Translations under genes and position numbers: made by a program
Source: Epilithonimonas bovis DSM 19482
GTDB taxonomy: Bacteria > Bacteroidota > Bacteroidia > Flavobacteriales > Weeksellaceae
Length of the DNA stretch: 64,000 nucleotides
NCBI RefSeq assembly: GCF_900108115.1
Contig: NZ_FTPU01000017.1
Location: forward strand, 1-64,000
Direction: 5' to 3'
Shown: piece by piece, positions 1 through 15,662 of the stretch
How positions within the stretch are numbered: position 1 is the stretch's first letter
Layout: each line of letters starts with the position of its first letter
Notes under the pieces: generated by a model
Databases searched by the model: none
What the model was told of the DNA's origin: nothing
What the model saw: only the letters and a program-made list of their open reading frames with translations

Positions 1-245
1 CTCATTAGAAACATGGTTTTGTACCAAATTAAGAATGAAAGATTAGAATTTTGCATAATCGTTCCACTTTTCAAGGAAATTCTTTTACGACACTTTTTGC
101 ATTCGTAGCTCCAGATGCTTTTAATCCAGAAATGCTCCTTGTGACCGCACTTGCAAACCACTCCGATTTTATCTCTCTGCTCCTTAAAATGAATTCTGCA
201 ATCTTCCTCTCTCCCAAAATGCGTTGTAAAACTAAATATATTCAT
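1..245 (-). CDS. IS1595-like transposase, N-terminal part (runs off left edge)
   Basis: Eighty-one codons are visible from an ATG at 245, continuing past position 1. A zinc ribbon is seen with cysteines at residues 31, 33, 49 and 52, followed by the lysine/arginine-rich stretch and the 'SLKSGTI' segment typical of the N-terminal domain of IS1595-family transposases, which precedes the DDE core. The gene abuts a truncated hsdS fragment, so the insertion sequence may have caused that truncation. The inverted-repeat end of the insertion sequence should lie between about 246 and 300, but I could not define it. The family call rests on the zinc ribbon and its flanks only. Confidence 0.6.
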   Translation of the reverse strand, partial: MNIFSFTTHFGREEDCRIHFKEQRDKIGVVCKCGHKEHFWIKSIWSYECKKCRKRISLKSGTIMQNSNLSFLIWYKTMFLM

Positions 246-257
246 CTAACTAATTAA

Positions 258-680
258 ATTATAAGTAAATATACGAAATTATGTGTAATTACGGATATTC
301 ATAATCCTAATAATATATTAATCTCAAACATACGACCTTATTTAAAAAAAATATATTTTTCAAATACTAGTGGAATTTGTTCATCCGATGTTTTGAACTT
401 TACTACGAATCCAGAATTTTCGCCAAGATTTATTTATTACAATTTACATCAAGATGCTTTTTTTGAGCATATGATGAAAGGAGCAAAAGGCACTAAAATG
501 CCTAGAGGAGATAAAAATCAGATTTTAGATTTTGAAATTCCTAATTTCCCAATTGATTATCAACAAAAAATTGCCAATATCTTGACAGATATTGACAATA
601 AAATTGCATTGAACAATAAGCTAAATGATAATTTATTTTACAAAATCACTCCACTTTTACCTGTCCGTTCATCAGCATAG
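258..680 (+). pseudogene. hsdS target-recognition fragment, inverted relative to hsdS
   Basis: The reading frame is open from 258 and carries HsdS hallmarks: 'LISNIRPY' near 318-341, 'GTKMPRGDK' near 490-516, then 'QQKIANIL' and 'IDNKIALNNKLNDNL' at about 562-633, the start of a central conserved helix. There is no start codon or N-terminus. After 'NDNL' the frame crosses into the antisense of the hsdS 3' end and stops at 680, so both ends are broken. It faces the intact hsdS on the other strand. Such inverted partial hsdS copies are known donors of alternative recognition domains in phase-variable type I systems. Whether this one still recombines is unknown. Confidence 0.7.
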
Positions 681-1875
681 GCAAAAGCCAGTCACGTAAA
701 TCGCTAAGTTGTTGGTTTTGTTTTCTGTTCGTTAAAATGTTTTCTAAATAAGGATCTATTATTTTCTCTAACTCTGTAATTATTTTTAGAGGAGGAACGG
801 AAATTCTACTTTCGATTAAATGATCTTTGGTTATATGCCCCATTGTTGTTTTCCTCAATTCAGCCATCATTTTAAAATGTTGCAAATAATTTGATATTTC
901 AAAAAAGTAAAAGTATTTGGGATATTTTGAAGATGTAACTTTAAATATGTGCTGATTTAATGCTCCTTTGCCTAAACTCCAGATTTTTACATCTAATGTA
1001 GCTGACCAAGAAAATAGAACATCACCATCATAAATTTTATGCTTTTCAGGAATGTCAACTGTTACTTTTTCAGTGTTTTGAGATAGTCCATCATTCATTT
1101 CTTTAATTTTTATAACGGCTAAATAATCCTCGTTCTCATTTAATGGTCTATATTTTTGACAAGCTAGCCCATTTATAAATTCTGCAATATCATATAAACT
1201 TTTCACTTCCCAACCTTCTGGAATCTCCCTCTTCACAACTTCATTAAAAACCATTTTGCCACCGCTTGATTTATAAGGCTTTCCGTTTTCATTTGGGAAA
1301 TCAAACTGTACAAACCAATAGTCGTATAGCGTTTTTGCCATCTGCTCTAAATTATCATTTATCCGATTGTTGAGCTCAATTTTATCATCTATTGTGGATA
1401 AAACAGATGCGATTTTTTGTTGTTCTAATTTATTATTTGGAACTAAAATTTCTTGACGTTTTAAAGCTCCTTCATTTACCCTTTTCCTTCCCGAAGTCCC
1501 TTCCATACAGCTTATAGCTTTTTCTCTAAACAATGGACTTCGCGCTAAATAATAAATGAAATTGGAATCTGAATTTTCATTTTCTCTTAGAACAATAAAT
1601 TCTGAAGAACCGAATGCAACTTCCTCATCATCTAAAATATCTACGTATGCAGTTTTACCATTTTCTAAACAAGGAGTTATTTTAGCAACCAAGGTGTCTC
1701 CATTTCTGAATTTTGGTCCAGATTTATATTCTGAAAACTCATATCCTTTAATCTTCCGTTCAAATACTCCTAGCCTATCCATTGGAATCTTTTTTACTTT
1801 TCCGTTTTTTGGTAAACTTTCTGAAGGATTAAAATCTATAAATTCGCCGATAGATGTTTGCTTCCAATTACTCAT
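646..1875 (-). CDS. hsdS: Type I restriction-modification specificity subunit HsdS
   Basis: This 409-residue protein has the usual HsdS layout: target-recognition domain 1 (about residues 1-150), central conserved helix with 'QQKIASVLSTIDDKIELNN' (about 150-185) and 'LYDYWFVQFDFP', domain 2 (about 215-360), and a C-terminal helix ending 'LRDWLLPMLMNGQVKV'. It sets the DNA sequence recognised by the HsdM/HsdR complex. It overlaps the end of hsdM by 8 bp, so translation is probably coupled. It looks intact. The DNA for its central helix is similar to the inverted fragment at 258-640, including an identical 14-bp stretch (TAAATGATAATTTA). Confidence 0.92.
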   Translation of the reverse strand: MSNWKQTSIGEFIDFNPSESLPKNGKVKKIPMDRLGVFERKIKGYEFSEYKSGPKFRNGDTLVAKITPCLENGKTAYVDILDDEEVAFGSSEFIVLRENENSDSNFIYYLARSPLFREKAISCMEGTSGRKRVNEGALKRQEILVPNNKLEQQKIASVLSTIDDKIELNNRINDNLEQMAKTLYDYWFVQFDFPNENGKPYKSSGGKMVFNEVVKREIPEGWEVKSLYDIAEFINGLACQKYRPLNENEDYLAVIKIKEMNDGLSQNTEKVTVDIPEKHKIYDGDVLFSWSATLDVKIWSLGKGALNQHIFKVTSSKYPKYFYFFEISNYLQHFKMMAELRKTTMGHITKDHLIESRISVPPLKIITELEKIIDPYLENILTNRKQNQQLSDLRDWLLPMLMNGQVKVE

Positions 1876-3484
1876 ACCTCAACTTTTTCAAATTTTCCTG
1901 TATCTTCTTCTCCAACTCTGCACTTTCTGCAAACATTGCTGTCAAATTATTTTCAAAAGAAGTCATCTTGTTTTGAAATTCTTCTGCTGTGATTTCAACA
2001 TATTCTATTTTTACTTCAAAGTATTGACCTGCACTAAAACTGTAATTCTTTTCTTTAATTTGTTCTGCTGAGATCACTACTGAGAAATCTTCTTCAGGCA
2101 GCTTTTGATTCATCGCGTTGATGATGCGTTCTTCCTCTTCTCTGGTTAAAACTGTTCTTTGGTTTTTTCCTTCTTTTATGGTTTTTCCCAATTTAGAAGA
2201 ATCTACCAAAACAATATGTTCATTATCTGCTTCTTTGTCAATAAAAATCACAGAAACGTTGGTTCCCGTACTTGCAAAAATATTACTTGGCATACTTACC
2301 ACACCTCGCAACCAACCTCGATTGATTAACGCTTCCCGTATATTCTTTTCGATTCCGCTTTGCGCCGTAATAAATCCGGTAGGAACAACAATCGCGGCTT
2401 TCCCAGTCGTACTTAAGCTGTGCATAATATGCTGAATGAAAAGCAAATAAATCGACATCGAGTCTTTTTTTGCTTTCGGAACATTGGGAATTCCCGCAAA
2501 AAATCTTTCTTTGAAACTATCTTTATCCAAATCGTTTCTAAAATCTGAAAAATCTAATTTGAAGGGCGGATTGGAAACAATGTAATCAAACTTTTCTTTT
2601 AAATAAGAAGGTTCAGAAATCGTATTTCCTTTAATGATATTTGGGATAGAGTGCGAAAGATTGTTAAGAATTAAATTCAACCTCAACATATTACTCGATT
2701 TTTGAGAAATATCTTCAGAGTAAATCGAACAGTTTTTTTCTCCAATTGCGTGAGCAATGTTCATCAAAAGTGTTCCAGAACCTGCGCTTGGGTCATACAC
2801 TTTCACATTTGTTACAGCATCCTTTACCAAAATAGCTGCCATAATTCTGGCAACTGCGTGAGGTGTATAATATTCGGCATATTTTCCACCACTGTCACTG
2901 TTATAATCTTTGATCAAATATTCGAAAATGGTCGCAAAGAAATCATATTTTTCTTGGAACATTTTCTCAAAACTGAAATTCACTAATTTATTAACCAACG
3001 CTCGTGCAAAAGCATCTCTTTGGGAAGAATCAGTAATGAATTGGCTGAGATCATCAAACATTTTATCTTTTACACCACTTGCCGTTTTTATGGAATAAAG
3101 ATTAGAATTATCAAGGCTGATATTCCGCAATGTTCCGTCAAAATAAGTTTCTGCAAAATTTGCTTTGGTAGAATTGTTGAAAAGATAAGAAATCAAATGT
3201 TCTGGTTGCAGTTTTGGTGCCTTGTTTCCGATTCGGGCGATTAGAAATTTTCTTTCCTCGTCCGACAGTGATTCGTATGACTTCTGAAAATCGTTTGCTT
3301 CAGCTAAGGTTTCATTAATTTTCTTTGCTTCATAGCTGAACTTATCGTTCATATATTTGTAAAGAAAGGTCTGTGATATAATTTTAAATTCGTTTCCGTC
3401 GTTTCCTAAACCGTAGTTAGCACAAACACTTTTTAGGTCATCAATGAGCTTTTTTGTGTTCGATATAAATTCTAAATCTGTCAT
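1868..3484 (-). CDS. hsdM: Type I restriction-modification methyltransferase HsdM
   Basis: This 538-residue N6-adenine methyltransferase has an N-terminal helical domain (about 1-170), an S-adenosylmethionine motif 'DPSAGSG' at residues 231-237, the catalytic 'NPPF' at 305-308, and a C-terminal extension that contacts HsdS. Length and motifs are complete, so methylation is expected to work together with the intact hsdS. The start codon overlaps the hsdR stop by one base (TAATG), which implies translational coupling with the broken hsdR gene upstream. Methylation may therefore depend on how far ribosomes get through hsdR, or on an internal promoter. Confidence 0.95.
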   Translation of the reverse strand: MTDLEFISNTKKLIDDLKSVCANYGLGNDGNEFKIISQTFLYKYMNDKFSYEAKKINETLAEANDFQKSYESLSDEERKFLIARIGNKAPKLQPEHLISYLFNNSTKANFAETYFDGTLRNISLDNSNLYSIKTASGVKDKMFDDLSQFITDSSQRDAFARALVNKLVNFSFEKMFQEKYDFFATIFEYLIKDYNSDSGGKYAEYYTPHAVARIMAAILVKDAVTNVKVYDPSAGSGTLLMNIAHAIGEKNCSIYSEDISQKSSNMLRLNLILNNLSHSIPNIIKGNTISEPSYLKEKFDYIVSNPPFKLDFSDFRNDLDKDSFKERFFAGIPNVPKAKKDSMSIYLLFIQHIMHSLSTTGKAAIVVPTGFITAQSGIEKNIREALINRGWLRGVVSMPSNIFASTGTNVSVIFIDKEADNEHIVLVDSSKLGKTIKEGKNQRTVLTREEEERIINAMNQKLPEEDFSVVISAEQIKEKNYSFSAGQYFEVKIEYVEITAEEFQNKMTSFENNLTAMFAESAELEKKIQENLKKLRYE

Positions 3485-6400
3485 TAGTTGATATAAGATT
3501 GTTGTCTGTATTCGTTTACAACCAACTGGTTAATATTTTGGGTCGTTTCGAAGTCAAGTTTCATTTTTTTGTTGTCTATAAATTTTTGTATAATGATGCT
3601 CAATACTTCATCACTAAAATAATCATTCCCATCTTTCAGGATATTGGTATTGCTTAGAACGAGAAGATCAACCATTATTTTTGTATCCATCAATGCTTCG
3701 TGGATTTGTGTTTCCTGGGCAGAAATACTTCCTTTTTCCATTATTCTTTTGTGGATTCTGGTAAATTTGTCGTCGTTGTTATATTTTGAATTGATATTGG
3801 AGTTTTTATTATTAAGCTCATTTACTCGAGCATAAACAGATTTTAGCAACGTAATATTACTCCTCATATCTTCTTGTGAAACTTCGTCTAAATTTTTATT
3901 TTTAAAAATCCTTTCTAGTTCTTCTCTTAACGTTATAAATTCAGGGTCTTTCTGGTCGATATTTCTTTGTAATTCTTCTCTTGTTTTACGAAGATCACTA
4001 TGAAGCTGAACAGCAATAATCATTTCTTCTTCAGAAACTTTCACAAACTGAAAATAGATATCTTCCAGAGCTACATTCAGCAGATTATTGTTCTCGTCTT
4101 CATTATCAAGGTTTTCTACAAAATTAATACTTGCCAACCTGTCTTGTACAACTTTCAGAAGTTGATTTAATTTAAAGAAATCTATTCCGTTTAATAAATC
4201 ATCATCGCCTTGTAAACGAATAATGTTCCTTAATTCTTTTGCAGAACTGAGAATATTAATAATATCCTGTAATCTTTTCTTATCTGAAATCTGAATGATT
4301 TGGTCAGAAAAATTCTCAGCATTCCTGGTATCGTATTGAAAAAGAAATTCTTTTATTCTTGATTTGTCTTCCTGTATTTCTTCACGTGTTTTAAAGAGAT
4401 TGCTGTAATTCTGCATTTCGTCTCCCAACTCACTTTGTAATTCCTGAAAATAATTATCGTTGGTAATTTTGAATTCTTTAGAAATATCAGCAAAATCGAC
4501 TACATATCCGAATTTATAGTTTTTATAAGGTCGATTGACACGAGTCAGAGTTTGCAGTAAATTTTGATGCTTTACCACTCTCGCCAAATATAATTTCTTT
4601 AATCTTTTCGCATCAAAACCAGTTAACAGCATATTGTAAACAAAAAGAATATCAATATCTCCTGCCTTAAAAGACTTTACATCTTTTTTCCTATACTCTT
4701 TATCATTGATGTCGTGCAGAATCAACGAGGCTTTCAAAGAATCATTGTTGCCATATTTCGCTTTTTCTTCTGCTACACTCAGATAATCTTGAGTTTGTGT
4801 TCCGTATATTTTTTCAAATTCTGCAAAGAGTGCTTTTGCCTGATCAGAACTATCGCAAACCACCATTGCTCCTAGCGAATCATCTTGGTGGGTTTTTCTG
4901 AATGCTTTTAAATCTGTCAGAATATATTCTAACATTGGTTCTGCAAATTTTGGATGTGCAAAAATATCACTTTTGCTAATCGTTCCTTTTTTCAAAATCT
5001 CATCCATAATATCCTGCATCTGTAACTTATACTGCGTATTGATACCTTCTCGTATCAATCGCAAAGTGTAACCATCTGCAATAGATTTGTTGTAATAATA
5101 TTTATGAATGTAATCGCCGAAAATTGCTTTAGAATCGTAATCTTTGGCGACCTCTTTCAAAAGTGGAGTTCCTGTTAAAGCAATTTTTATAGCATTCTCA
5201 TCAGATTTTAAAAGATTGATAAGATAATTCCCCTTCGGATTATAACTTCGGTGTGCTTCATCAATGAAATAGATTCATTGGATATTCAGGTCATAATCTA
5301 AAACTTTTTCAACCGTACTTTCTTCAGTGAATTTCTGGATATTAATTACAGAAATTTCTGGTTCGCCTGTACTGTTTTGTAAAGCACTAATTGTTTTAAT
5401 GTCTGTCAGGAACTCACTTCGGGAATTAACTCGTTTTACAATCAATCCCCTCATTCCAAATTCTGACGTCGCCTGATAAGCTAAATCTAATCGGTCGACC
5501 ACAAAATAAAACTTCGGAATAATATTTTTCTTCTGATAATAATCAGTCAGAAATTTCACATTGTAGTATGCCAAAGCCGTTTTACCACTTCCTTGCGTAT
5601 GCCAAATAATTCCTTTTTTAATAGATTTATCTAAACTTGCTTTAATTGCCTTAGTCGCAAATATCTGGGGATAACGCATAATGTGTTTCTGAATCACATT
5701 CACACCATCAATTTCTTCTTCCACATAAGCCAAACCAAATTGTAAAATAAAAGCCAATCTATCTTTAGAAAGAAGTGAGGTTAAAATTCTATTGGTCGGT
5801 TTGTTGTAATCTTTATTCGTTAGAAATTCATCTGTATTTTTAATTGCAACAATATTATTATCTCTTAAAATTGAGTTTTCTAAATCCTCATTCTCAGGTT
5901 TTAATAAATGGGTAAGATTAAGATTTTCTTCTTCTCTAAAATAATTGAAATGTAAATTCCCATTGGCAGAAGTAGCATAAAAAGCGCCATAAACAGGATC
6001 AATTACGCCATCCTCATATTCCATATTATTGGAGAAAATCATCAATTGCGTAATGTTGGTAAACGTTTTAAAAGCTGCATTGGTAAAACGTCTGTTGATA
6101 CGATTTCTTTCATCAATTACGCCTTGTTTATTATTTGGTTTTTTAACTTCAATAAAAACCAATGGCATTCCATTAATTAAAACAGTAATATCCGGACGAA
6201 ATTCTTCTTCTCCATTTTTATAAGTCAATTCTGTAGTAATATGAAAAGAATTATTCTCGAAATCATCAAAATCAATAAGTTTTATTCCTGAAGTATTAGT
6301 CAATTGCTTAAAAAAGTCTCTGCCTAAATCGTCATTTTTTAATTTAAAACTGACATCTTCTAAAAGTTTAGTTACCTCTCCCGAAGAAAGTTCCGGATTT

Positions 6401-6549
6401 ATATTTGAAATGCTTTCTTTAAAAATATCAGAAAATATATTGTTTTCTTCCAACCGAAATTGCTTTGACCTTGAGATATAAGTATAGCCTAGTCTTGCCA
6501 AATGCAATAAAGCTGGTATTTTAACTCGTGAGTCTTCGTTGAATTTCAT
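3484..6549 (-). pseudogene. hsdR: Type I restriction endonuclease HsdR, interrupted by one in-frame TGA
   Basis: The frame is continuous over 1022 codons except for a single TGA at 5277-5275 (codon 425). The N-terminal half has the nuclease signature (D120, then E134-x-K136 in 'FIEVKKP') and a Walker A 'QGSGKT' at 319-324. The stop falls five codons before the 'DEAH' helicase box. After it the same frame continues with 'LTGTP' and the rest of the motor and C-terminal domains. No base is inserted or deleted, so one substitution explains it; CGA to TGA is the simplest. The product would lack ATP hydrolysis and restriction. A TTG at 5160 could restart translation but gives no nuclease. A sequencing error is possible. 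Confidence 0.85.
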
Positions 6550-6716
6550 CGTAAATCTTAGGTTTCTGTAAATATAACAAAATCAAATAAAGGAAACTAA
6601 AGGAAAACCGTAAAAGAACTAAAATCGAAAAGCTCCTCTCATCAATTTCTGCTCTCCTCTGGAAATCCCGATTTCAGTTGCAGTATTTTAACAATCTCGA
6701 ATTTCAAGAATGATTG

Positions 6717-6851
6717 TTAATTAATACTATAAATCTGCAATTTTGTGAATTTGCATATTTTCTTTACCTCATTAGAAAAATCATCATAGGTGAAAACATA
6801 TCTTTTTGGGAATCGGTCTAAAGTATATGCTATGTAATCAGTACTTTTCAT
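6717..6851 (-). pseudogene. Truncated DUF6088-like (AbiEi-type) N-terminal fragment
   Basis: A 44-codon frame from ATG at 6851 (or 6875, adding eight residues) begins 'MKSTDYIAYTLDRFPK' and continues 'YVFTYDDF', which matches the start of the DUF6088 family of transcriptional-regulator or antitoxin-like proteins as I remember them. Family members are about 200 residues, so this is only a remnant and stops at 6717. It lies between the mobilization genes and hsdR. It may mark where the restriction cassette was acquired. The call rests on a short motif. Confidence 0.45.
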
Positions 6852-6875
6852 TGAATAATTAAAAAGCAAATACAT

Positions 6876-6914
6876 AAAAAATGTCCAGTTTATTAATTAA
6901 AAAACTAGACATTT
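6876..6914 (-). terminator. Intrinsic terminator after the mobilization operon
   Basis: A 13-bp stem (6879-6891 with 6902-6914) is fully paired on the minus-strand RNA if one G-U pair is allowed. It is followed in that direction by a run of six T. It lies 22 bases beyond the end of the membrane-protein gene at 6936. Confidence 0.75.
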
Positions 6915-6935
6915 ATAAATCATTTTAAAAAAAAA

Positions 6936-7568
6936 TTATTCCTTCCTCGCATCAAATCCATCTTTAAATCTCAAAAAATCTTCCCCTTTTTTAGGATTAT
7001 TCTTAATCCAAAGTTGCATAATTTCGGTATTTTCACTCAATATTTTTATCTCCTTTTCATCATAGATTTTTTTTCCTTCACCAGCAATTTCATTTAAAAT
7101 ATCTTGGCGCAGTTCACTTTTTGCTTTGATGCTTTCTTTGTACCATTTGGTTGCGAAATTGATGGAAATTATCATCAATAAAACCGAAAAAACACTAACT
7201 CCAATTCCACTCCAGATAAATTTTTCAAGTCTTTTAACTTTGTTTTCAAAATTTCCATAAAAATCAATGGTTTCTTGAGATAGAACTGTTTCTATTTTGG
7301 TAGGAATATTGGCAAGAAATTCAGATCTTTTCACTTGCTCCAATTCATACAATTTATCGACATCATCATACTTTGCATTTACATCACGCAAACCAGTCTG
7401 GATATGTTTTGACGAATTGATAAAGTCTTCCACAACAAATTCAACTTTTACAAATTGTTCGATATTTGCTTCGTTTGAAGCAATATTTTTCTCGTTAGAT
7501 TTTATCACGTTTTCCAGCAATTCCATTCCGTTACTTTTCGTGTCTTCGTTTTGATTTTGATTTTCCAT
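6936..7568 (-). CDS. Small coiled-coil membrane protein of the mobilization operon
   Basis: This 210-residue protein has a charged N-terminal region predicted to be coiled coil (about 1-110), one clear transmembrane segment at about residues 118-138 ('WSGIGVSVFSVLLMIISIN') and a charged C-terminal tail. There is no signal peptide. It lies 23 bp after the relaxase gene and ends at a terminator, so it is the last gene of the mobilization operon. Genes of this shape after relaxases in Bacteroidota elements are usually left as hypothetical. A role in the relaxosome or in docking to the coupling protein is a guess from position only. Confidence 0.7.
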   Translation of the reverse strand: MENQNQNEDTKSNGMELLENVIKSNEKNIASNEANIEQFVKVEFVVEDFINSSKHIQTGLRDVNAKYDDVDKLYELEQVKRSEFLANIPTKIETVLSQETIDFYGNFENKVKRLEKFIWSGIGVSVFSVLLMIISINFATKWYKESIKAKSELRQDILNEIAGEGKKIYDEKEIKILSENTEIMQLWIKNNPKKGEDFLRFKDGFDARKE

Positions 7569-7591
7569 TTTATTAAATTTATTTTTTATTG

Positions 7592-8512
7592 TTATCTTGA
7601 TTTTCTCTTCTTTTTCTTTAATAATTCATCATCTGAATTGGAGGTATAGGTTGGTTTTAAAAACTCCTCAATTGCTTTTCCAACTTCGCTGATTACGGAG
7701 TCGTTTTTTTGTACATTTCCACTATTTTCTTGGTTTGAATTTTCAGAAAAAACAGTTTCATTATCCAATTTTTTCGCTCTATTTTCATTGAGAATCGCTT
7801 TGATGTCCGCAATTTTTAACTTGCTGGTAATTTCAGAAAGTTTATAGCCTGCTTTATAAATTCTGTCTGTATTGGGATTTTTGTCTTTCTCCATCACGAT
7901 TCGCATTCCCGAAACGCCGTCTTTCACATTCTTGGATAATTGAATTTCAAAACCTCTTTCTTTCATTTTAAAAATAAGTTCATCAAAATTTTTTGCTGAT
8001 TTTAGGGTTTCTTTCAAATTTTTCAGCATCTCTGCTTTTTTCTGAATTCCAATTTCCACATCGGTCAACAAACCTTTTTCTTTACAAACTTCCCGAACTG
8101 CTTCTCCGAATCTTCTTCCTACATCATGTGATTTTACAGTACATTTCCCCGAAATATCAATCCTGTTCACGATAAAATGAATGTGTTTTTGTTTCGTACT
8201 GTTATGAATATCCAATCGAAATTGATTCTTATCGCTCACTCCAATTTTTTCTAAAGCTTTAGTAGCGATTTCTGTAAATTCTTCATCCGTCAACTTTCTG
8301 CCAATCTCGTCGGGTTGAGAAATATAGCCAGTTAAAGCCCATTTTTTCACATTCGTGTTTCGGTCTGCAACGGTTTTCATTTCCAAAAACTGACCTTCAG
8401 CCATTGAACTCAAAAGACAATTTGAAGCCACCATTTCCGCTGTTCCTTTGTCGTTTCCGTTGTATTCTAAAGCGATTTTCGTGATGGTTCTAGTGGTTGC
8501 AGAATTATTCAT
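7592..8512 (-). CDS. mobB: Relaxase (mobilization nuclease)
   Basis: This 306-residue relaxase would nick the element at its oriT and carry the strand into a recipient. The metal-binding signature H-x-H-x3-N-R is at residues 110-117 ('HIHFIVNR'), with a conserved 'HNST' just before it and a long C-terminal region rich in charged residues. The likely catalytic tyrosine is near residue 17 ('ALEYNG'). The start overlaps the upstream mobilization gene by 8 bp. It resembles relaxases of Bacteroidota integrative mobilizable elements; the gene symbol follows that usage and is tentative. Confidence 0.85.
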   Translation of the reverse strand: MNNSATTRTITKIALEYNGNDKGTAEMVASNCLLSSMAEGQFLEMKTVADRNTNVKKWALTGYISQPDEIGRKLTDEEFTEIATKALEKIGVSDKNQFRLDIHNSTKQKHIHFIVNRIDISGKCTVKSHDVGRRFGEAVREVCKEKGLLTDVEIGIQKKAEMLKNLKETLKSAKNFDELIFKMKERGFEIQLSKNVKDGVSGMRIVMEKDKNPNTDRIYKAGYKLSEITSKLKIADIKAILNENRAKKLDNETVFSENSNQENSGNVQKNDSVISEVGKAIEEFLKPTYTSNSDDELLKKKKRKSR

Positions 8513-8954
8513 TTTTCTGAATTTTTGAGTATAAATATTGATGAATCAAATCAACTACATTCTCAATTTTTACTAAAATTTCTTTCTTATTTTCAAAAAC
8601 AGTCCATTCTCGATTTCGCAAAAGATTGGTTATTTTTTTGAAGTGAGTTCCAAATTGAAGCAAGGTCTCATCAGTTTTAAATTCATTGATTTTTAATTCT
8701 TTTTCGAACAAAACATTTCGGATATACGTTGATAATTTGAGCGGATATTTCTCTTGTTTTCGAATCAATAATTCATATTCAGAATTGGTCATTCTTATCG
8801 AAATCACTTTATCCAGTTTTTTGTTTTCTTTAGTTTTTAAACCACCTTTTCTGCCCAATTCTTGGAAATGTTTTTTTCTCTTTTCCTGAGCAATTTTTGT
8901 TTCATTTTCTTTGGTGGCTTGGTTTATAAATTCTTGTAAAAAGTCGTTTTCCAT
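8505..8954 (-). CDS. mobA: Relaxosome accessory protein (MobA/MobC-like)
   Basis: This 149-residue basic protein contains 'ELGRKGGLKTK' followed by a ribbon-helix-helix-like stretch ('KVISIRMTNSEYELL', about residues 48-62) and a helical C-terminus, as in plasmid mobilization relaxosome proteins that bind oriT and help the relaxase nick. It is the first gene of the mobilization operon and its 3' end overlaps the relaxase gene. The cruciform at 9017-9046 lies 62 bp upstream, which is the expected place for oriT. Confidence 0.8.
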   Translation of the reverse strand: MENDFLQEFINQATKENETKIAQEKRKKHFQELGRKGGLKTKENKKLDKVISIRMTNSEYELLIRKQEKYPLKLSTYIRNVLFEKELKINEFKTDETLLQFGTHFKKITNLLRNREWTVFENKKEILVKIENVVDLIHQYLYSKIQKNE

Positions 8955-9016
8955 TTCATTAATTTTTGTGTATTTAAAAACATTTCTGACGATAGGAAGA
9001 AATCAAAAATCTCAAT

Positions 9017-9046
9017 TTTACAATCAGCGACCACGCTTATTGTAAA
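9017..9046. other. Candidate oriT cruciform
   Basis: A 30-bp inverted repeat has arms TTTACAAT and ATTGTAAA around an inner AGCG-ACCA-CGCT hairpin, with a single C/T mismatch between the two stems. Neither strand has a T-run directly after it, so a terminator is unlikely. It lies between the primase gene and the first mobilization gene, where oriT is usually found in mobilizable elements. The nick site itself cannot be read; the stretch 9047-9075 is a candidate. Confidence 0.55.
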
Positions 9047-9101
9047 CTTTGGGTACTTTTTGCACTAGCATCCCACCATATTTTACCTGTGTTTATTTCA
9101 C

Positions 9102-9980
9102 TCACCTTCTCCTGTGTTTTAGTTGCCTTTCATTTAATGGATTTTTGTTAATTAACCAATCATTTAAGTCTTTAAAATCTGAATACAAAATCCGACAATC
9201 TTCTACATTTTTGTTTTCATTTTCAATCATTTCAACTGCTCTATTTCCGGCTTCATCGTTGTCAAAATAAAGTTCAATGTTTTCATAGTCTTTGAGTGAA
9301 TTTTTAATATTATGAATCATCGAAACTGAATTCAAAATGATATAATTGGAAGGCTCTTTTTCTAAAAAATTTTCTACATTTTTAAAGGAAAGAAAATCGA
9401 AAAAACCTTCGAAAATCCTAACTGAATTTAAATTGCTTTTAATTGTTGAAACATCTTTTTTACCCAAACAAATTTTGGAGTATTTATTGCGAATTTCATA
9501 ACCGCCAGAATCGTTTTTGAAACCAATTCCGAAATAATTTTTATCATTCATTCGATAATGAATTTCTTGTAAAAATTGAGTTTGATTTTCAACATTTCTT
9601 TCCTTTAAATATTCTAAAAGTGCAGGATGCTGAACATTTTTTATTTCAATAATTTCATGGTTTTTAGAAAGATTTTCCAATTTACTATTGGAAGTTTTTT
9701 GCTGTTGAAAAGAAGAAAAATTTTGATTTTCTGCCCATTCTAAAACTTCTTTTACAGAAGCATTCAAATATTTTTTCATAAAATTGACATTGTTTCCGCC
9801 GATTCCTTCGGAGTGTAAATACCAATAGTTTAGGTTTTTATTAATTTTAAAAGAGGCGTGGTTTTCTTTGGCAAATGGATTGAGAAACCACGCTTCTTTT
9901 TCCGTTTGTTTTGTTGGAAGGTGTCCGAGAATTTGGAGGACTTCTTCCAACTTTATGCTGTTAAATTGTTTGCAATTCAT
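9102..9980 (-). CDS. TOPRIM-domain DNA primase of the element
   Basis: This 292-residue protein has an N-terminal DNA-primase-like fold (about 1-85, without the zinc cysteines of DnaG) and a C-terminal TOPRIM domain. The TOPRIM glutamate motif is 'VRIFEGFFDFLS' (about 190-200) and its D-x-D is in 'LYFDNDEAG' (about 238-246). It probably primes replacement-strand synthesis after transfer, or replication of the excised circle. The iteron-like array lies directly upstream of its start, so it may be controlled by, or act at, that site. Confidence 0.8.
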   Translation of the reverse strand: MNCKQFNSIKLEEVLQILGHLPTKQTEKEAWFLNPFAKENHASFKINKNLNYWYLHSEGIGGNNVNFMKKYLNASVKEVLEWAENQNFSSFQQQKTSNSKLENLSKNHEIIEIKNVQHPALLEYLKERNVENQTQFLQEIHYRMNDKNYFGIGFKNDSGGYEIRNKYSKICLGKKDVSTIKSNLNSVRIFEGFFDFLSFKNVENFLEKEPSNYIILNSVSMIHNIKNSLKDYENIELYFDNDEAGNRAVEMIENENKNVEDCRILYSDFKDLNDWLINKNPLNERQLKHRRR

Positions 9981-10024
9981 TGTGTAGATTTTTCGGGTAT
10001 TAATTATTGTAATTTGTTGTGTAA

Positions 10025-10156
10025 TTGTTGAGAAAATATATTAAACAATTGATTTTTAGATATTTAATCATTCAACAAAAGCTCAACAATTCAACAAAAT
10101 CGATTTTATTTGCTCAACAAACATTCAACAAAAAAGTGGGTTTAAAAGTTTGTTGA
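10025..10156. repeat. Iteron-like TCAACAA array (possible replication origin or operator)
   Basis: Five direct copies of TCAACAA start at 10072, 10083, 10091, 10114 and 10125, and two inverted copies occupy 10025-10031 and 10150-10156. Two of the spacings are exactly 11 bp, one helical turn. The array fills the 221-bp gap between the helicase and primase genes. Clustered, phased heptamers beside replication genes are what an iteron origin or a multimeric repressor site looks like. Confidence 0.6.
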
Positions 10157-10201
10157 GGATTTTGTAGAGAACTAATTGATTGATTTTCTTTTCATTATCA
10201 A

Positions 10202-11431
10202 TTAATTCAACATTTCAACATATTTTTGAAGAATGAGATCTTTTTTAACAGTGAAAAATCGCCCAACGGAATTGTTTTGATAAAATATTCCTGCAAAATC
10301 AATGTCGTATCTGATGTAGGTTAAGCCGTTATTTTGCGGATTCAATTTCCATGTTTCCTTTAATAGATTTCGAATATCGTTTCTCGTCCAGTAAGTTGGT
10401 CGAAACATTCGGTTCATCATGTTCAGGATATCTTGTGGAACGAAATTAATTTCATCTTCGTTGTTGCTTTCAAAAAACTCATACAACAACTCAATCATTT
10501 TAGATTCCAGCTTATTGTTATTCTTGAAAACCAGTTTTTGGAGTGCTTTTGTCCTGATTTCATCGGCAGAAAACCACATTCTTGTTTTCTTTTCTGTTGA
10601 AAAAGGTCTCTCAATTAAAAACCGAAGAAAATGAGGGATTTCTGAAATGAGATTGTCAAGAAAGTCTGTGTTTTCCACTTTTATCGGATTAATTTTTAGA
10701 ATCCAAAATCGAATTTCGTTTTCATCGATTTGAATAAAATTTTCTTCGTTATTGGAACACAAAATAAATTTGGCGAAAAAATCGATTTCTTCTCGGTCTT
10801 TTCCTTTGGCTTCCAACTTGTCTTTGTTGGTGGTCGATAGATATTTTAATCTTTCTGTAATCTCTTTTTTATCAAAAAACACTTCATCAATCGCCACAAC
10901 CAACATTGCTGCCCAATCAGAATTAAATTGACTTCCGAATGAATCGCCTTTGATGTAAGTCATATTTAACCCGAAAATTTCTTTCAACCATTTTATGAAC
11001 GTTGATTTTCCGGTAGCTCTTTCTTTGCTTACCAAGCATAAAATAGGCAGAATTTGCGTTGGAAATTGCAATAGGATTTTCAAATAATCTAAACCGAGTT
11101 CCAACTGTTCTCCGAAAATATGCTTCACAAAATTCAAAGAAAAAGGAATTTCATTTTTGAAATTTTCGTTTTCAGATGAAGGAGAGAATGGGATTTCGTT
11201 ATAAATATTATAGAAACCTCGAACGATTTGTTGATAATCTAAATGTTCCGGAATACAACAAAAACCATCATATTTTGGGATTGATGAAAGAAAAGCTTTT
11301 CCATGGTCGCTAATGATTGTTTCGCGATTCCAACGAACCAAAACTGAGGTTGTGTCTCCCGAAATTAATGGTTTTTCTATTATTTTATAGTAAGTTGTTC
11401 CGACTCGGATGTATGGGATTTTATTTTTCAT
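10202..11431 (-). CDS. DUF5906-like primase-helicase ATPase
   Basis: This 409-residue protein has a central ATPase with a Walker A-like 'ERATGKST' at residues 137-144, a Walker B-like 'MLVVAIDEV', and a downstream 'LCSNNEENF' sensor region, followed by a helical C-terminus. This matches the superfamily-3-like helicases (DUF5906 or VirE-like) of mobile-element replication modules. It overlaps the upstream DUF3853 gene by one base and is likely expressed with it. It would unwind the element during replication. The protein shows no primase half; that role falls to the separate TOPRIM gene. Confidence 0.75.
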   Translation of the reverse strand: MKNKIPYIRVGTTYYKIIEKPLISGDTTSVLVRWNRETIISDHGKAFLSSIPKYDGFCCIPEHLDYQQIVRGFYNIYNEIPFSPSSENENFKNEIPFSLNFVKHIFGEQLELGLDYLKILLQFPTQILPILCLVSKERATGKSTFIKWLKEIFGLNMTYIKGDSFGSQFNSDWAAMLVVAIDEVFFDKKEITERLKYLSTTNKDKLEAKGKDREEIDFFAKFILCSNNEENFIQIDENEIRFWILKINPIKVENTDFLDNLISEIPHFLRFLIERPFSTEKKTRMWFSADEIRTKALQKLVFKNNNKLESKMIELLYEFFESNNEDEINFVPQDILNMMNRMFRPTYWTRNDIRNLLKETWKLNPQNNGLTYIRYDIDFAGIFYQNNSVGRFFTVKKDLILQKYVEMLN

Positions 11432-11751
11432 TATCTCTTCTTTAATCCTGGTTTATTATTGTTCTTCAGAAGTTCCAATGCTTTTTCAACATCAATAATT
11501 ATTTTTCTCCCATTTTGAATGATGGCTTCGTCGATTGTTCCGCTCTTTTTCAACCTTTTAGCCGAAGACTCACTACAATTCAATAAGCTTTGAATGCCCG
11601 AAATACCATAGACGTATTTTTTCTCCGTAAACTTTGAATTTTCAGAGTTTTCAGTATTTGATTTTGTGCTACTTCCTTCAATTAAATCAAGAAATTCTTT
11701 GCCTGTTAATTGCCATAATGGTTTTTCTTTTAATGAATTAATATTTTCCAT
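11431..11751 (-). CDS. DUF3853 family helix-turn-helix protein
   Basis: This 106-residue protein contains 'PLWQLTGKEF' near the N-terminus and 'YVYGISGIQSLLNCSESSAKRLKKSG' (residues about 47-72), the typical DUF3853 arrangement of a MerR/excisionase-like helix-turn-helix, then 'NGRKIIIDVEKALELL'. Such proteins sit upstream of replication genes in Bacteroidota mobile elements and probably regulate them or aid excision. Its stop is fused with the start of the helicase gene (one-base overlap). Confidence 0.8.
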   Translation of the reverse strand: MENINSLKEKPLWQLTGKEFLDLIEGSSTKSNTENSENSKFTEKKYVYGISGIQSLLNCSESSAKRLKKSGTIDEAIIQNGRKIIIDVEKALELLKNNNKPGLKKR

Positions 11752-11867
11752 TTTTTGAAATTTAGATTTGATTAAATAAATGCCGTGTTCTTTGGCTTTC
11801 GTTTGTTCGAACAGGTCAAATTTCTAATAACTATTTGGTGATTTTTCGTGATTTTCTTGTAAAATAA

Positions 11868-11904
11868 AAAATGCAAATAATTGACATTCAATTATTTGCA
11901 TTTT
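11868..11904. terminator. Perfect 17-bp inverted repeat, probable terminator
   Basis: Arms at 11868-11884 and 11888-11904 pair perfectly around a 3-base loop. The minus-strand product would be followed by a T-rich tract, so it probably ends the integrase operon before the DUF3853 promoter region. The strict symmetry would also suit a bidirectional terminator or a protein-binding site. Confidence 0.55.
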
Positions 11905-11997
11905 AACAAATTTTGTTTTTCGTGATTTTAAACTGTCTATGGGTTTTATATAGTTCTTTGCAGTTTATTTTTGAGGTTACTGACCATTTTTAGCCGT

Positions 11998-12918
11998 TTA
12001 TGAATTGATAATTTCATAAAAATTTTCATAATTTTCCTTTTCGTAAAATCTACTTTTTAATGTGCTTTCTGTTAAATTAAATTCTTTAATTACAAAACTC
12101 TGCCATTCTTTCTTTTTAAATCCTTTTTTCTCAACATCATCTGACAACAATTTGAATAGATAAGCGAAGTGTGTTACTTTTAAAGCATCAGCACAATTTT
12201 TTTTTGGCATTTTTAAATTTAAAATGAGATGGAAATCTTCATGTGTAAGTTGGGATTTTGGATATATGTATTTTTTTTCAACCATCGTATCGAAAATTTT
12301 TCGTGTTATTTCCGAATCAAAAATTTCTTTGGCTGGTTTTAGTACAGAAACTTTAAAATAGTTTTCGATTTTTTGGAGAATTTCATCTGCTTTTGTCAGA
12401 ATTTTAAAATAGTAATTCGTTTTAATCCAAGAATATTTACTGTAAATCATTTCTTGCTCTTTCTTCAAGTGATTTAATTCTATTTCAAAGTCACTTATTA
12501 CTTTTTGTTTTTCTAATTGCGGCATTCCAGATTGAGATTCTTCTATTTCCAAAATATCATTTTCTTTAATTTTAATCCATTGCTGAATTTTTATTAATTC
12601 TGGGATCTTATCAAAGTAGGAATTTAAAAACGTATTATTGGTAATAATTTTTTTTTCAAAAACAAGGTCATCATATTTACTAATCTTTGTAAGTAAATCG
12701 TTGAAAACAATTTCTTTAAATCCTTCATTAGCTAATTGCATAAAAATTATATCAATTTTTTTTTCATCTAATTCTTCGCTGATTTTTTTACTTGCATATA
12801 GTTTTTTCATTTGAGCTTCGTCGTGATGAAATTTATCACTATGCAATAGTAAAAAAGCACTTTCAAAAATTGTAATGAGATAAGATATTTCTTGCAGTAA
12901 TTGATTCTCACTTTTCAT
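11998..12918 (-). CDS. Unknown protein coupled to the integrase
   Basis: This 306-residue protein is mostly helical and rich in lysine and glutamate, with a coiled-coil-like stretch around residues 115-195. The C-terminal part contains 'FHLILNLKMPKKN' and ends in 'KEWQSFVIKEFNLTESTLKSRF', which looks like a DNA-binding helical segment. No enzyme motif, signal peptide or membrane segment is visible. It overlaps the integrase stop by 4 bp (ATGA), so the two are translated together. A recombination-directionality or regulatory role is suggested by that coupling only. I do not recognise the family. Confidence 0.7.
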   Translation of the reverse strand: MKSENQLLQEISYLITIFESAFLLLHSDKFHHDEAQMKKLYASKKISEELDEKKIDIIFMQLANEGFKEIVFNDLLTKISKYDDLVFEKKIITNNTFLNSYFDKIPELIKIQQWIKIKENDILEIEESQSGMPQLEKQKVISDFEIELNHLKKEQEMIYSKYSWIKTNYYFKILTKADEILQKIENYFKVSVLKPAKEIFDSEITRKIFDTMVEKKYIYPKSQLTHEDFHLILNLKMPKKNCADALKVTHFAYLFKLLSDDVEKKGFKKKEWQSFVIKEFNLTESTLKSRFYEKENYENFYEIINS

Positions 12919-14189
12919 AATTCATCAAATTTTTTCATAGCATTAGCTTTAATATTATCAGCTATATCAATATACGGCTTCATAGATTTATAGTCTGCAT
13001 GACCGGTCCATTTCATCACTATGTTAACCGGAATTCCAAGAGAAAGTGCTGTACAAATAAAAGTTCTACGTCCTGCATGCGTTCCCAATAAGTCATATTT
13101 TGGAACTACTTCGTCAACTCGGATATTACCTTTGTAATGAGTTAACCGGATTGGTTCGTCAATCTCCGCCAGTTTCGCTAATTCCTTAATATAGTCATTC
13201 ATTTTTTGATTAGAAATAATTGGAAGAGCCCGATCATGTTCAAATGGAATATCTTTATACTTGTTAAGAATCTTTTTACTGTTCTTATTGAGTTCAATCT
13301 TCAAACTATCTCCTGTCTTTACAGTTGTAATTTCAAAATAATCCTTTTTAATATCTGAGCGTTTTAAATTTAAAGCATCGGAGTATCGAATTCCGGAATA
13401 GCATAAAAAAATAAAAACATCCCGAACTCTTTCAAGATATTGCTTACCTTCGGGAATTTCGTAAAGTTCAAGAGTTTTTAATTCCGTCTGCGTTAAGAAA
13501 ATAATTTTTTTTTGAGTTGCTTTAAACTTTGGGTAGAATGCCTCATAAGATAGGTTGTCATTATACCCTTTTGCTTTAGCCCATTTTAAAAACCATTTTA
13601 AAAAACTAACTTGTTTTTCAATGGTAGAATTTCTCATTTTCAATTTATCTCGCAGAAACTCTACATATAAAGTCAATCCTTTTTCATCTAAAAAAGAAAA
13701 TGATAGTTTACTATTAAATTCAGACAAATGCTTCCTAACAGACGAAAATTTCTCATATGTTCTGACTGTCCAGTTTTTAACTCTACCGTTTTCAGTTGTA
13801 AATTCGTCGAAATAATCAAAAAATCCTTTTGCTTTTGTGATAACCTGTCCTTTTTCAAATGCAGAATTAAAATGAAATTTAACTTCTTCAACGGTTGGTG
13901 TTAAATTCTTAAATTCAAATTTTTTAAAAACATTTTGAATTTCAGCTTCGTACTCAGACAGTTTCGTATTAATATCAGAGGCAGATTGTTTTAATTTGTT
14001 GAAAGTATTTGGTTTTACCTTAGACTTTTTGCTATCCCATTTATTTCTATCTACCCTCATACCCGTAAAAATCTCAATCCTATTTCCAGAAAAAGTAATA
14101 CGCATACGGATTGGGACATTTTCTATAATCAATTCGCCATTCAATTTTCTATTTTCAAGAACAAAAATTACATTTCTTTTTATAATCAT
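12915..14189 (-). CDS. int: Tyrosine-type site-specific integrase
   Basis: This 424-residue integrase has an N-terminal arm-binding region (about 1-110), a core-binding SAM-like domain (about 120-215) and a catalytic domain. The catalytic residues are visible: R268 ('GIRYSDA'), H371 and R374 ('HAGRR'), H397 ('GHADYKS') and the nucleophile Y406. It would recombine the element into and out of the tRNA site at 14329-14352, which lies 140 bp upstream of the start, the usual integrase-next-to-att arrangement. Two TTACACCCA repeats lie in between. Confidence 0.93.
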   Translation of the reverse strand: MIIKRNVIFVLENRKLNGELIIENVPIRMRITFSGNRIEIFTGMRVDRNKWDSKKSKVKPNTFNKLKQSASDINTKLSEYEAEIQNVFKKFEFKNLTPTVEEVKFHFNSAFEKGQVITKAKGFFDYFDEFTTENGRVKNWTVRTYEKFSSVRKHLSEFNSKLSFSFLDEKGLTLYVEFLRDKLKMRNSTIEKQVSFLKWFLKWAKAKGYNDNLSYEAFYPKFKATQKKIIFLTQTELKTLELYEIPEGKQYLERVRDVFIFLCYSGIRYSDALNLKRSDIKKDYFEITTVKTGDSLKIELNKNSKKILNKYKDIPFEHDRALPIISNQKMNDYIKELAKLAEIDEPIRLTHYKGNIRVDEVVPKYDLLGTHAGRRTFICTALSLGIPVNIVMKWTGHADYKSMKPYIDIADNIKANAMKKFDEL

Positions 14190-14199
14190 GAGTAAAATA

Positions 14200-14220
14200 T
14201 TACACCCAATTTTACACCCA
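14200..14220. repeat. Paired TTACACCCA repeats, possible integrase arm sites
   Basis: Two identical 9-mers occupy 14200-14208 and 14212-14220, 12 bp apart, between the integrase start and the att site. Direct repeats of about this size near att commonly bind the N-terminal arm domain of tyrosine integrases. They could instead be an operator for int. Confidence 0.4.
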
Positions 14221-14328
14221 CTATTGGCATATCTTTAAGCACTTTTATGATATTCAAAGATATTAAAAATATTTAAAACATTGATTTATAACTATATAAA
14301 ACTTTAAAGAACTTGCAAAACCTTATAA

Positions 14329-14352
14329 GTTCGAATCCCTTCCTCTCTGCAA
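14329..14352 (+). other. attachment site: orphan tRNA 3' end
   Basis: The stretch reads as a tRNA T-loop (GTTCGAATCCC) plus a 3' acceptor strand, but no D-arm or anticodon arm precedes it. It is followed at 14356-14392 by a normal intrinsic terminator. This is the expected result of integration within the 3' end of a tRNA gene: the displaced 3' end stays here and the intact tRNA should lie at the other end of the element, outside the window. The acceptor strand resembles a tRNA-Ser, which I cannot confirm. Confidence 0.65.
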
Positions 14353-14355
14353 TCT

Positions 14356-14392
14356 AAGCGTTGATAGTACAAAATCTGTCAGCGCTTTTTTT
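14356..14392 (+). terminator. Intrinsic terminator of the original tRNA gene
   Basis: Arms AAGCGTTGA (14356-14364) and TCAGCGCTT (14379-14387) pair with one G-U, followed by a T-run to 14392. It directly follows the orphan tRNA 3' end, which supports the reading of that stretch as a tRNA remnant. The stretch from here to the pdhA promoter at 14633 holds nothing else I recognise. Confidence 0.75.
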
Positions 14393-14632
14393 GCTTAGTT
14401 CCCAATCGATATTATTAATGGCGGCAATCTTTTTCTGTCGCAGAATATGTTACAATTTTGGAAGTATTTTTATAAAAAAGATGCTTTGCAGTCATATACT
14501 TAATGTTTTTGCCAAAGGCTGATGTGCTGTGTGTCAGGTAAAATATTGTCAACCTGACCGGTTAAGTCGAGATTATTATCCGGCATAATGAAAATATAAT
14601 TGTATGCTAACAATAAAAAAAGTTTTTTTTCT

Positions 14633-14640
14633 TATTTTTG
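14633..14640 (+). promoter_or_regulatory. Promoter of pdhA (-7 box)
   Basis: TATTTTTG matches the Bacteroidota -7 consensus TAnnTTTG and lies 20 bp before the ATG at 14661. A clear -33 TTG is not visible. Its position rules out the upstream TTG-type starts for pdhA. Confidence 0.55.
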
Positions 14641-14660
14641 CTACATATTTCGAAATTACA

Positions 14661-15662
14661 ATGAAAGAATTTTCTAAAGAAGTCTACCTGAAATGGTATG
14701 AAGAAATGACGATGTGGAGAAGGTTTGAAGACAAGTGCCGTTCTCTTTATCTAAAACAAAAAATCAGAGGTTTCTTACATCTTTATAACGGCCAGGAAGC
14801 TATTCCTGCAGGTTTTGCCCATGCGATGGATCTTACAAAAGACAGCATGATTACGGCATACAGATGTCACATTCACCCAATGGCTATGGGTGTAGATCCT
14901 AAAAAAATACTGGCTGAACTTTGTGGCAAAGCTACCGGGACATCCAAAGGGATGGGTGGTTCTATGCACATCTTCAGCAAAGAACACCGTTTCTATGGTG
15001 GGCATGGTATTGTTGGTGGCCAAATTCCTTTGGGAGCAGGTATTGCTTTTGCGGATAAATATTTTGACAGAAAAGCGGTTAACATCTGTTTTATGGGTGA
15101 CGGCGCTGTACGTCAAGGATCTTTGCATGAGACATTTAACATGGCAATGAACTGGAAACTTCCTGTAGTATTTGTTTGTGAGAACAACGGATACGCCATG
15201 GGGACATCGGTTAAAAGAACTGCCAATCACGAGGATATATACAAACTTGGATTAGGTTACGAGATGCCTTGTCTTCCTGTAGATGCAATGGATCCGGAAA
15301 AAGTGGCAGAAGCAGCTTACGAAGCGATAGAAAGAGCAAGAAGAGGAGACGGGCCAACTTTTATTGAAGCCAGAACTTACCGTTACAGAGGACACTCTAT
15401 GTCTGATGCAGAACCATACAGAACCAAAGAAGAGGTTGCAGAACATAAAAAAGATGATCCTATCGAAATCGTGAAACACAGGATTTTGGAAAATGGATGG
15501 GCTACCGAAGAGGAACTGGAAGTGATGGATGAGAAATCAAGAGCTTTTGTAGAAGAGTGTGTAGAGTTTATGGAAGAATCACCATATCCAAACACATCTC
15601 AGGTTTACGACTTTGTGTATTCTACACCGGATTATCCATTCTTAGACAAACTAGAAAATTAA
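14661..15662 (+). CDS. pdhA: Pyruvate dehydrogenase E1 component, alpha subunit
   Basis: This 333-residue subunit binds thiamine diphosphate and decarboxylates pyruvate as the first step of the pyruvate dehydrogenase complex. The thiamine motif runs from 'GDGAVRQG' to 'CENNGYAMGT' (about residues 146-177), and the phosphorylation-loop-like 'YRYRGHSMSDAE' follows near 245. The ATG at 14661 is preferred because the promoter box lies just before it and the protein then begins 'MKEFSKEVYLKWYEEM' as is usual for the family. The E2 gene follows after 77 bp. No E1-beta gene is adjacent, so it must be encoded elsewhere. Confidence 0.95.
   Translation: MKEFSKEVYLKWYEEMTMWRRFEDKCRSLYLKQKIRGFLHLYNGQEAIPAGFAHAMDLTKDSMITAYRCHIHPMAMGVDPKKILAELCGKATGTSKGMGGSMHIFSKEHRFYGGHGIVGGQIPLGAGIAFADKYFDRKAVNICFMGDGAVRQGSLHETFNMAMNWKLPVVFVCENNGYAMGTSVKRTANHEDIYKLGLGYEMPCLPVDAMDPEKVAEAAYEAIERARRGDGPTFIEARTYRYRGHSMSDAEPYRTKEEVAEHKKDDPIEIVKHRILENGWATEEELEVMDEKSRAFVEECVEFMEESPYPNTSQVYDFVYSTPDYPFLDKLEN

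Follow-up and report, generated by a model that had tools for sequence, protein, structure and literature searches.

A cluster of short repeats between the genes of a helicase and a primase raises the question of what the repeats do and which protein reads them. The cluster lies in Epilithonimonas bovis DSM 19482, within the 64,000 nucleotides that we analyzed (positions 1 to 64,000 of contig NZ_FTPU01000017.1, below called the window), where copies of the heptamer TCAACAA separate a DUF5906 helicase gene from a DnaG-like primase gene. An original prediction had taken these repeats for an iteron origin in an integrated element, bound perhaps by a DUF3853 protein or by a 306-residue protein. 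The origin is still the best-supported reading, the array being conserved, while the binders proposed have given way to the helicase. Our best reading is an initiator-helicase origin resembling those of the staphylococcal pathogenicity islands (SaPIs) and the staphylococcal cassette chromosome mec (SCCmec), with a variable iteron code, in a mobilizable element of the Bacteroidota.

The heptamer array and its conservation

The putative origin is the intergenic region of 221 base pairs (bp) between the helicase and primase genes (9981-10201), which is 76% A+T compared to 67% in the helicase gene and 63% in the window. Seven exact TCAACAA heptamers make up the core iteron array (10025-10156), five on the plus strand (10072, 10083, 10091, 10114, and 10125) and two on the minus strand (10025 and 10150). 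The pairs 10072/10083 and 10114/10125 are offset by 11 bp and another pair by 8 bp. This is the place, number, orientation, and 11-bp phasing originally described, but the array was found to be longer, since two further TCAACA hexamers on the plus strand (10207 and 10215; 10207-10220) overlap the last codons at the 3' end of the helicase gene. In 20,000 dinucleotide shuffles of 9981-10201 TCAACAA occurred 0.23 times on average and three times at most, and never seven times or more. When the best heptamer of any sequence with at least three different letters was counted in a 260-bp array region, none of 1000 shuffles reached seven; without the letter filter any heptamer reached seven or more in 100 of 3000 shuffles of the 221-bp region. 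Across the whole window TCAACAA was not enriched (22 copies, 18.6 expected). The signal is thus the clustering of the heptamers and not a window-wide enrichment. A promoter or terminator in the array was also considered and rejected, since promoter-like sites occurred at chance level (2 found, 2.2 expected) and the single terminator-like site (9933-9950, plus strand; 0.1 expected) is located inside the primase gene.

Relatives of the helicase were collected from a plasmid collection, from genomes of the same genus, family, order, and phylum, from genome contigs (the best 80 of 349 relatives), from one viral contig, and from the family of genome G745, which is Bacteroidaceae judging by the resemblance of its loci to Bacteroides and Phocaeicola records. 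The helicase was present in 79 of 296 genomes of the window's own family and in 43 of 251 of a second family. Phage records matching it numbered 155, all below 60% identity and none with one match over more than 80% of the length, and one locus with the helicase (L049) came from viral contigs. Of 166 loci, 143 entered the array analysis, 140 were readable and these gave 114 distinct helicase strings, one pair of which differs solely in the chosen start. Loci were excluded as fragments, interrupted or weak (L022, L023, L025, L057, L061, L065, L066, L068-L070, and L082-L084), as repeat copies of places already included (L072-L079, L085, and L086), or because the frame was broken or cut (L139, L141, and L161). 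In the G745-family set 27 of 30 loci were used, L183, L186, and L193 being removed as broken. Arrays were typed by exact heptamers in a stretch that begins 45 bp ahead of the helicase stop codon and extends 420 bp beyond it.

The array directly following the helicase stop was of TCAACAA type for 44 of the 114 distinct helicases, of TCATCAA type for 59, and of another kind for 11. An array usually holds 6-10 copies of one heptamer and at most a single copy of the other. Copies of a locus' own type averaged 7.41 (TCAACAA) and 6.25 (TCATCAA) in the first 200 bp after the stop, where copies of the opposite type averaged 0.00 and 0.07; any other 200-bp bin listed held at most 0.93 own-type copies, this value being that of the 200 bp before the stop, where the array begins. 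Read along the helicase strand the layout was '<<>><<<<<>>' in 45 of the 103 typed arrays and '<<>><<<<>>' in 14, with same-strand spacings of mostly 8, 11, 12, and 23. The window array reads '<<><<<<<>', a pattern seen five times among the arrays listed, and its two hexamers in the helicase gene correspond to the outer '<<' pair of the conserved layout. The 11 remaining loci included TGATGCA arrays in five (L055, L056, and L147-L149), CTACAAA in L159, AGTTACA in L081, and GATGACA in L155, while L005 combines both main types and L058 and L080 are returned to below. TGATGCA was present in 10 and 9 copies, CTACAAA in 5, and AGTTACA in 12, and in each of the tested loci (L147, L055, L159, and L081) none of 1000 shuffles scored as high.

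The conserved place, number, and layout, together with the discrete repeat types, indicate that the array is a conserved structure with a sequence that changes in discrete steps. Absence of conservation had been named at the outset as one case against an origin; the array was found conserved in place, number, and layout across related elements of several families.

Three arrays (L005, L173, and L184) are chimeric, with TCAACAA and TCATCAA together as if in the middle of a switch; the helicases of L005 and L184 are identical. A similar replicon was observed on plasmid pBUN1 (L006, 6090-13170), with an integrase, a MobV relaxase, and the MUN-1 beta-lactamase gene beside it. In genome G949 four near-identical helicase copies, on contigs C2, C12, C14, and C17, each lie a few kb from the first base of the contig, and are perhaps several insertions of one element.

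Related helicases were also found on free replicons. The circular 6,641-bp Klebsiella oxytoca plasmid L200 encodes a DUF5906 helicase followed by AATCCCA repeats (five exact copies; 0 of 1000 shuffles as high), and the 9,297-bp Citrobacter freundii plasmid L201 one followed by ACCAAGT repeats (10 in 720 bp, beyond all 1000 shuffles). Both helicases are distant, with 24-25% identity to that of L162. Pfam models found no other known replication initiator among the scanned proteins, i.e., four of the seven annotated for L200 and six of the ten for L201. It is likely that a DUF5906 helicase with downstream iterons is the replicon of both plasmids, which are not so annotated in the tables examined. 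Three plasmid records from Bacteroides and Phocaeicola (L003-L005), circular and 15-30 kb long, contain closer relatives with arrays, so that circular forms have at least been assembled.

Covariation of the array with the helicase

The helicase (409 aa, 10202-11431, minus strand) matches Pfam DUF5906 with 69 bits (cut-off 27.6) and has an AAA+/SF3-like core and a C-terminal domain (residues 290-409; 10205-10564) predicted to be a winged helix. The primase, found here on the other side of the array, was looked for in the relatives as an open reading frame (ORF) of at least 150 aa within 700 bp; 101 of the 114 loci had one, of which 98 were homologous. On trees of the 90 loci with both genes and a type, the array type changed four times for the ATPase part of the helicase (residues 1-285), once for the C-terminal part (residues 290-395), and 20 times for the primase, compared to a mean of about 28 for each in 100 shuffles. 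With all 103 typed rows the ATPase tree gave five changes. The mutual information with type reached the maximum possible, 0.96 bits, at helicase residues G369, P345, R374, and R350, while the best primase column gave 0.34. The array type is tied to the helicase and most closely to its C-terminal domain; the primase follows it far more weakly and the small protein encoded upstream does not track it.

Neither of the binders first suggested was supported. By tblastn over 82 loci the primase was found in 72, the DUF3853 protein in four, and the 306-residue protein of unknown function in two, although diverged copies could escape such a search. The genome of the window contains a second copy of the replicon (L002) with a 96% identical helicase and the same array, in which another small protein without detectable similarity to DUF3853 takes its place. 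When positions 1-15000 of the window were compared with 9 kb of contig C68, the two copies shared only 9697-11422 at 88.5% identity, that is, the helicase, the array, and the first part of the primase. No fewer than four different upstream proteins accompany TCAACAA arrays (L001, L002, L090, and L130), only those of L002 and L090 being faintly alike (20% identity, E 0.002), and the upstream protein of L130 has counterparts with 80 and 83% identity in L101 and L114, whose arrays are of TCATCAA type. Neither the DUF3853 protein nor the 306-residue protein of unknown function tracks the array.

The residues that covary with the repeat type are 350, 369, 374, and 389. Among the 114 helicases, all 44 with TCAACAA arrays have a basic residue at position 350 (R in 40, K in 4), and those with TCATCAA mostly have V, I, A or another non-basic residue there. 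A Bacteroidales set of 31 rows, 29 of them typed, was analyzed in addition; nine loci are common to the first set, and it contributed 23 new strings and 21 new proteins (L184 equals L005, and L187/L188 equal L162/L163 apart from the start). There, residues 369 (G/A vs. S/T) and 389 (V vs. T/I) completely separated 18 TCAACA-type rows from 11 TCATCA-type rows, the next-best column reaching 0.68; one of the 18 repeats another protein from a different start. In the combined set (137 rows including a few duplicates, 127 typed by hexamer) residue 350 was basic in all 58 A types and in 11 of the 69 T types. At residue 369, 55 of the A types had G/A and 68 of the T types S/T. The helicase shared by the chimeric loci L005 and L184 has K350 and G369, the A-type combination, and the inner repeats of both arrays are TCAACAA.

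AlphaFold2 models had a mean pLDDT (predicted local distance difference test) of 83.1 for the helicase and 88.0 for the C-terminal domain alone. In both, this domain consists of helix, strand, helix, a helix at 350-360, and strands at 370-377 and 383-390, an order that we interpret as a winged helix. Residue 350 is thereby placed at the start of the third, predicted recognition helix, and 369 and 389 in the two strands of the wing. The whole model resembled the C-terminal region of the NrS-1 polymerase (Z 24.0, root mean square deviation (rmsd) 6.3, 349 residues aligned) and the SaPI5 primase-helicase (Z 17.6, rmsd 6.3, 349 aligned). The statement that no Rep initiator is encoded nearby was consequently wrong in effect, the helicase having a predicted fold that resembles initiator helicases and a C-terminal domain that tracks the repeat; a Rep_3/RepA-type initiator had no Pfam match among eight proteins of the element. 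The SaPI5 and NrS-1 chains were not among the best 50 VIA-align matches of the C-terminal domain alone. Many of these 50 (PadR, LmrR, and MepR; Z 4.4-6.6) we take to be winged-helix regulators, and they may reflect a mere common arrangement. A helicase profile gave nothing meaningful against the sequences of solved structures (best PezT, E 0.06), and Pfam searches with 41 C-terminal domains gave nothing consistent, with DUF3384 in 13 of 41 (best E 0.00047) and a winged-helix model in one.

A probable initiator-helicase origin and the alternatives

The array, its covariation with the helicase, the predicted fold, and the known analogues point to the helicase as a self-loading initiator that reads its iterons through the C-terminal domain, and by analogy this is its most likely role. 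We consider it quite probable that the excised circle replicates from the array as a double-stranded origin, with the DUF5906 helicase as the initiator that binds it through this domain. For binding, ring assembly, melting, priming, and replication we infer the following. The winged-helix domain would bind the TCAACAA iterons directly downstream of the helicase's own gene; rings of the helicase would form there, open the A+T-rich DNA, and serve as the replicative helicase; and the adjacent DnaG-like primase would lay primers for the host polymerase, a mode of action like that of SaPI Rep and SCCmec Cch2. More tentatively, and with somewhat less than even confidence, DUF5906 helicases and their origins may constitute a specificity code throughout the Bacteroidota, in which the middle base of the iteron (TCA-A-CAA or TCA-T-CAA) is read by the helix at 350 and the wing at 369/389. 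One-letter switches, some of them half-way (L005, L184, and L173), would then divide the elements by their ability to cross-replicate, and so perhaps by their ability to live in one cell.

Several observations weigh against this interpretation. One of the 114 loci (L080) lacks any repeat and another (L058) has a weak one. The 20 changes on the primase tree are below the lowest of 100 shuffles (24), so that a weak link between primase and array remains, and the 90-locus comparison contains only three of the six hand-drawn A-type clusters. The C-terminal tree includes the covarying columns themselves, and as the codons of this domain adjoin the array, some of the covariation could stem from the two being passed on together as a single stretch of DNA. 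For the Bacteroidales set residue 350 does not work as a code, since it is K or R in every row there and all 11 T-type K/R rows come from this set; residue 369 has four exceptions in 127 rows. An independent-pairs test for residue 350 gave two pairs in agreement, none in disagreement, and two equal, too few for significance; permutation over clusters, which had been delineated manually on the tree and are only partly independent, equaled the extremeness of residue 350, over all columns, in 2 of 1000 cases. The C-terminal domain alone had no Foldseek match in the PDB at E 0.001 and a middling best VIA-align Z of 6.6. The helicase scored 17.7 bits against TIGR01613 (P4-type primase/helicase, D5/P4 primase_Cterm), below the curated cut-off of 108.7.

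The adjoining codons could also mean that covariation of the repeat with the C-terminal domain reflects physical linkage alone and that another protein binds the array; the single tract shared by the two copies in the genome of the window fits with this. We find it unlikely, since the primase, adjoining the array on its other side, often changes partner, like residues recur with the like repeat in lineages about 45% identical, and the upstream small proteins are exchanged.

The array might instead be chiefly an operator through which the helicase or another protein controls transcription of the primase and mob genes, with no role in replication. The helicase, primase, and mob genes are located on one strand with the array just upstream of the primase start, and iteron initiators often autoregulate as well. 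We judge that an operator would not need as many as some 9-11 sites, which keep a fixed layout across roughly 200 bp and in part lie within the helicase gene. The promoter-like matches are no more than chance would give, the neighboring helicase and primase are replication functions, and the same arrangement is found on the free plasmid L200 with no other recognized initiator among the proteins scanned. An operator as the main function is accordingly quite improbable.

A further alternative is that helicase, primase, and array serve second-strand synthesis or establishment after conjugal entry and not vegetative replication. Mobilizable elements enter as single strands and need priming, and a DnaG-like primase gene adjoins the array. 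On the other hand, the related SaPI and SCC helicases are described, in the accessible parts of the literature, as binding duplex origins, and a many-site array with a predicted winged-helix reader suggests recognition of double-stranded DNA, which makes this alternative very unlikely.

That the array is the origin of transfer (oriT), bound by the relaxase or a NikA-like partner, is highly improbable and was rejected as the principal explanation. In its favor, the gene content points to a mobilizable element, with the mob genes about 1 kb from the array, but equivalent arrays accompany a MobV relaxase (L006) and a MobA/VirD2-like one (the window) and are thus not tied to one relaxase type, the 76 typed loci include 35 matching the window relaxase (some below 30% identity), five others with MobV, and 36 with neither (in limited flanks, other relaxases not being sought), the array type follows the helicase, and a 16-nt inverted repeat at 9014-9049 upstream of the mob genes is an alternative oriT candidate.

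If the array is an initiator-helicase origin, it is likely the replicon, together with its initiator, of a widespread group of Bacteroidota mobile elements, and the presence of a helicase and a primase in these elements would be accounted for, as would the possible persistence of excised circles. Naturally occurring A and T forms of the repeat, each with matching residues, offer ready-made pairs to probe recognition between initiator and origin, and should the code be read as proposed, the repeat type may predict which elements are incompatible.

The element and its closest known systems

The following genes of the element are, like that of the helicase, located on the minus strand. The DnaG-like primase (292 aa, 9102-9980) has a CHC2 zinc finger and a Toprim_2 domain. 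Upstream of the helicase gene, the DUF3853 protein (106 aa, 11431-11751), mentioned in an iron-response context in the literature available to us, is replaced by other small proteins in relatives with the same array. A tyrosine integrase (12915-14189; PF00589 above cut-off) is encoded beside the 306-aa protein of unknown function (11998-12918), which is rarely detected with the array. The original prediction had singled out a 306-residue protein; this one is present, but the MobA/VirD2-like relaxase (7592-8512; PF03432 above cut-off) also has 306 residues. The relaxase has a weak MbpB match that misses the equivalog cut-off (49.9 vs. 400), and next to it lies the gene for a NikA/MbpA-like mobilization protein (8505-8954; PF21983 above cut-off). 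The tyrosine integrase, a MobP-type relaxase, and an accessory protein place the element among mobilizable elements of the NBU/Tn4555 kind.

A tRNA-Ser-like 3' fragment beside the integrase gene (14329-14351) is a likely attachment site. Elsewhere in the genome, the sequence most like it forms the 3' end of a tRNA-Ser (GGA) on contig C37 and has one mismatch; the other end of the element was not found. The inverted repeat at 9014-9049 (88%, 4-nt loop), just upstream of the NikA-like gene, is a candidate oriT or terminator, and a perfect 17-bp inverted repeat with a 3-nt loop is located between the genes of the 306-residue and DUF3853 proteins (11868-11904). Genes at 646-6549 resemble type I restriction-modification cargo, as judged by eye without a family search, and the large subunit appears to be split between ORFs 5275-6549 and 3484-5160.

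NBU1 itself carries a primase gene. NBU1, NBU2, and Tn4555-type Bacteroides elements share the tyrosine integrase and MobP relaxase with the window element, and NBU1 and NBU2 are reported to sit at tRNA 3' ends (PMC5704250). Relaxase, primase-family, and integrase genes are likewise reported in Prevotella relatives (PMC4755523). In contrast to the present element, the accessible text of these papers describes no replication origin for such elements (PMC5704250; PMC4755523). An origin was said to be seldom considered for small mobilizable elements, which is dated: precedents have been published for Salmonella genomic island 1 (SGI1) and the SaPIs, and one has been proposed for SCC elements. SGI1, a mobilizable island, has a putative iteron origin, oriV, directly downstream of rep; deletion of oriV or rep is reported to abolish replication, and the origin can raise the copy number (PMC7433901). 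The sections available describe no link to an initiator helicase, which sets SGI1 apart (PMC7433901). The phage-inducible chromosomal islands (PICIs) of Gram-negative bacteria have DUF5906 genes in the replication category and an origin downstream of pri, but they are phage satellites, and the word "iteron" is absent from the main text (PMC10111431).

The SaPI replicon is close in arrangement and in predicted whole-protein fold, as seen from the match to the SaPI5 primase-helicase. SaPIs are phage satellites, whereas the window element belongs to the Bacteroidota and is conjugally mobilizable by its gene content. It also differs from SaPIs in having a DUF5906 helicase without a primase domain, a DnaG-like primase, and different iterons. 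Both have a helicase gene with iterons directly downstream in an integrated mobile element that also encodes a primase, and SaPI Rep is reported to bind its iterons through the C-terminal domain (PMC7581432), a manner of recognition that covariation would support here. For SCCmec, the C-terminal domain of Cch2 is reported to bind short direct repeats downstream of its gene in vitro, while the sections available offer no proof of its replication in vivo (PMC7581432). SCCmec Cch2/CCPol-MP has three 5-nt iterons and a polymerase-type primase, compared to a DnaG-like primase and some nine TCAACA sites, which point both ways, in the window. We found no earlier description of the TCAACAA array in the literature searched, which lacked most subscription papers. 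As far as that literature goes, the kind of origin is known, while the variant is new: a probable DUF5906 helicase origin of mobile elements in the Bacteroidota, in which one iteron letter switches discretely and residues of the helicase match it.
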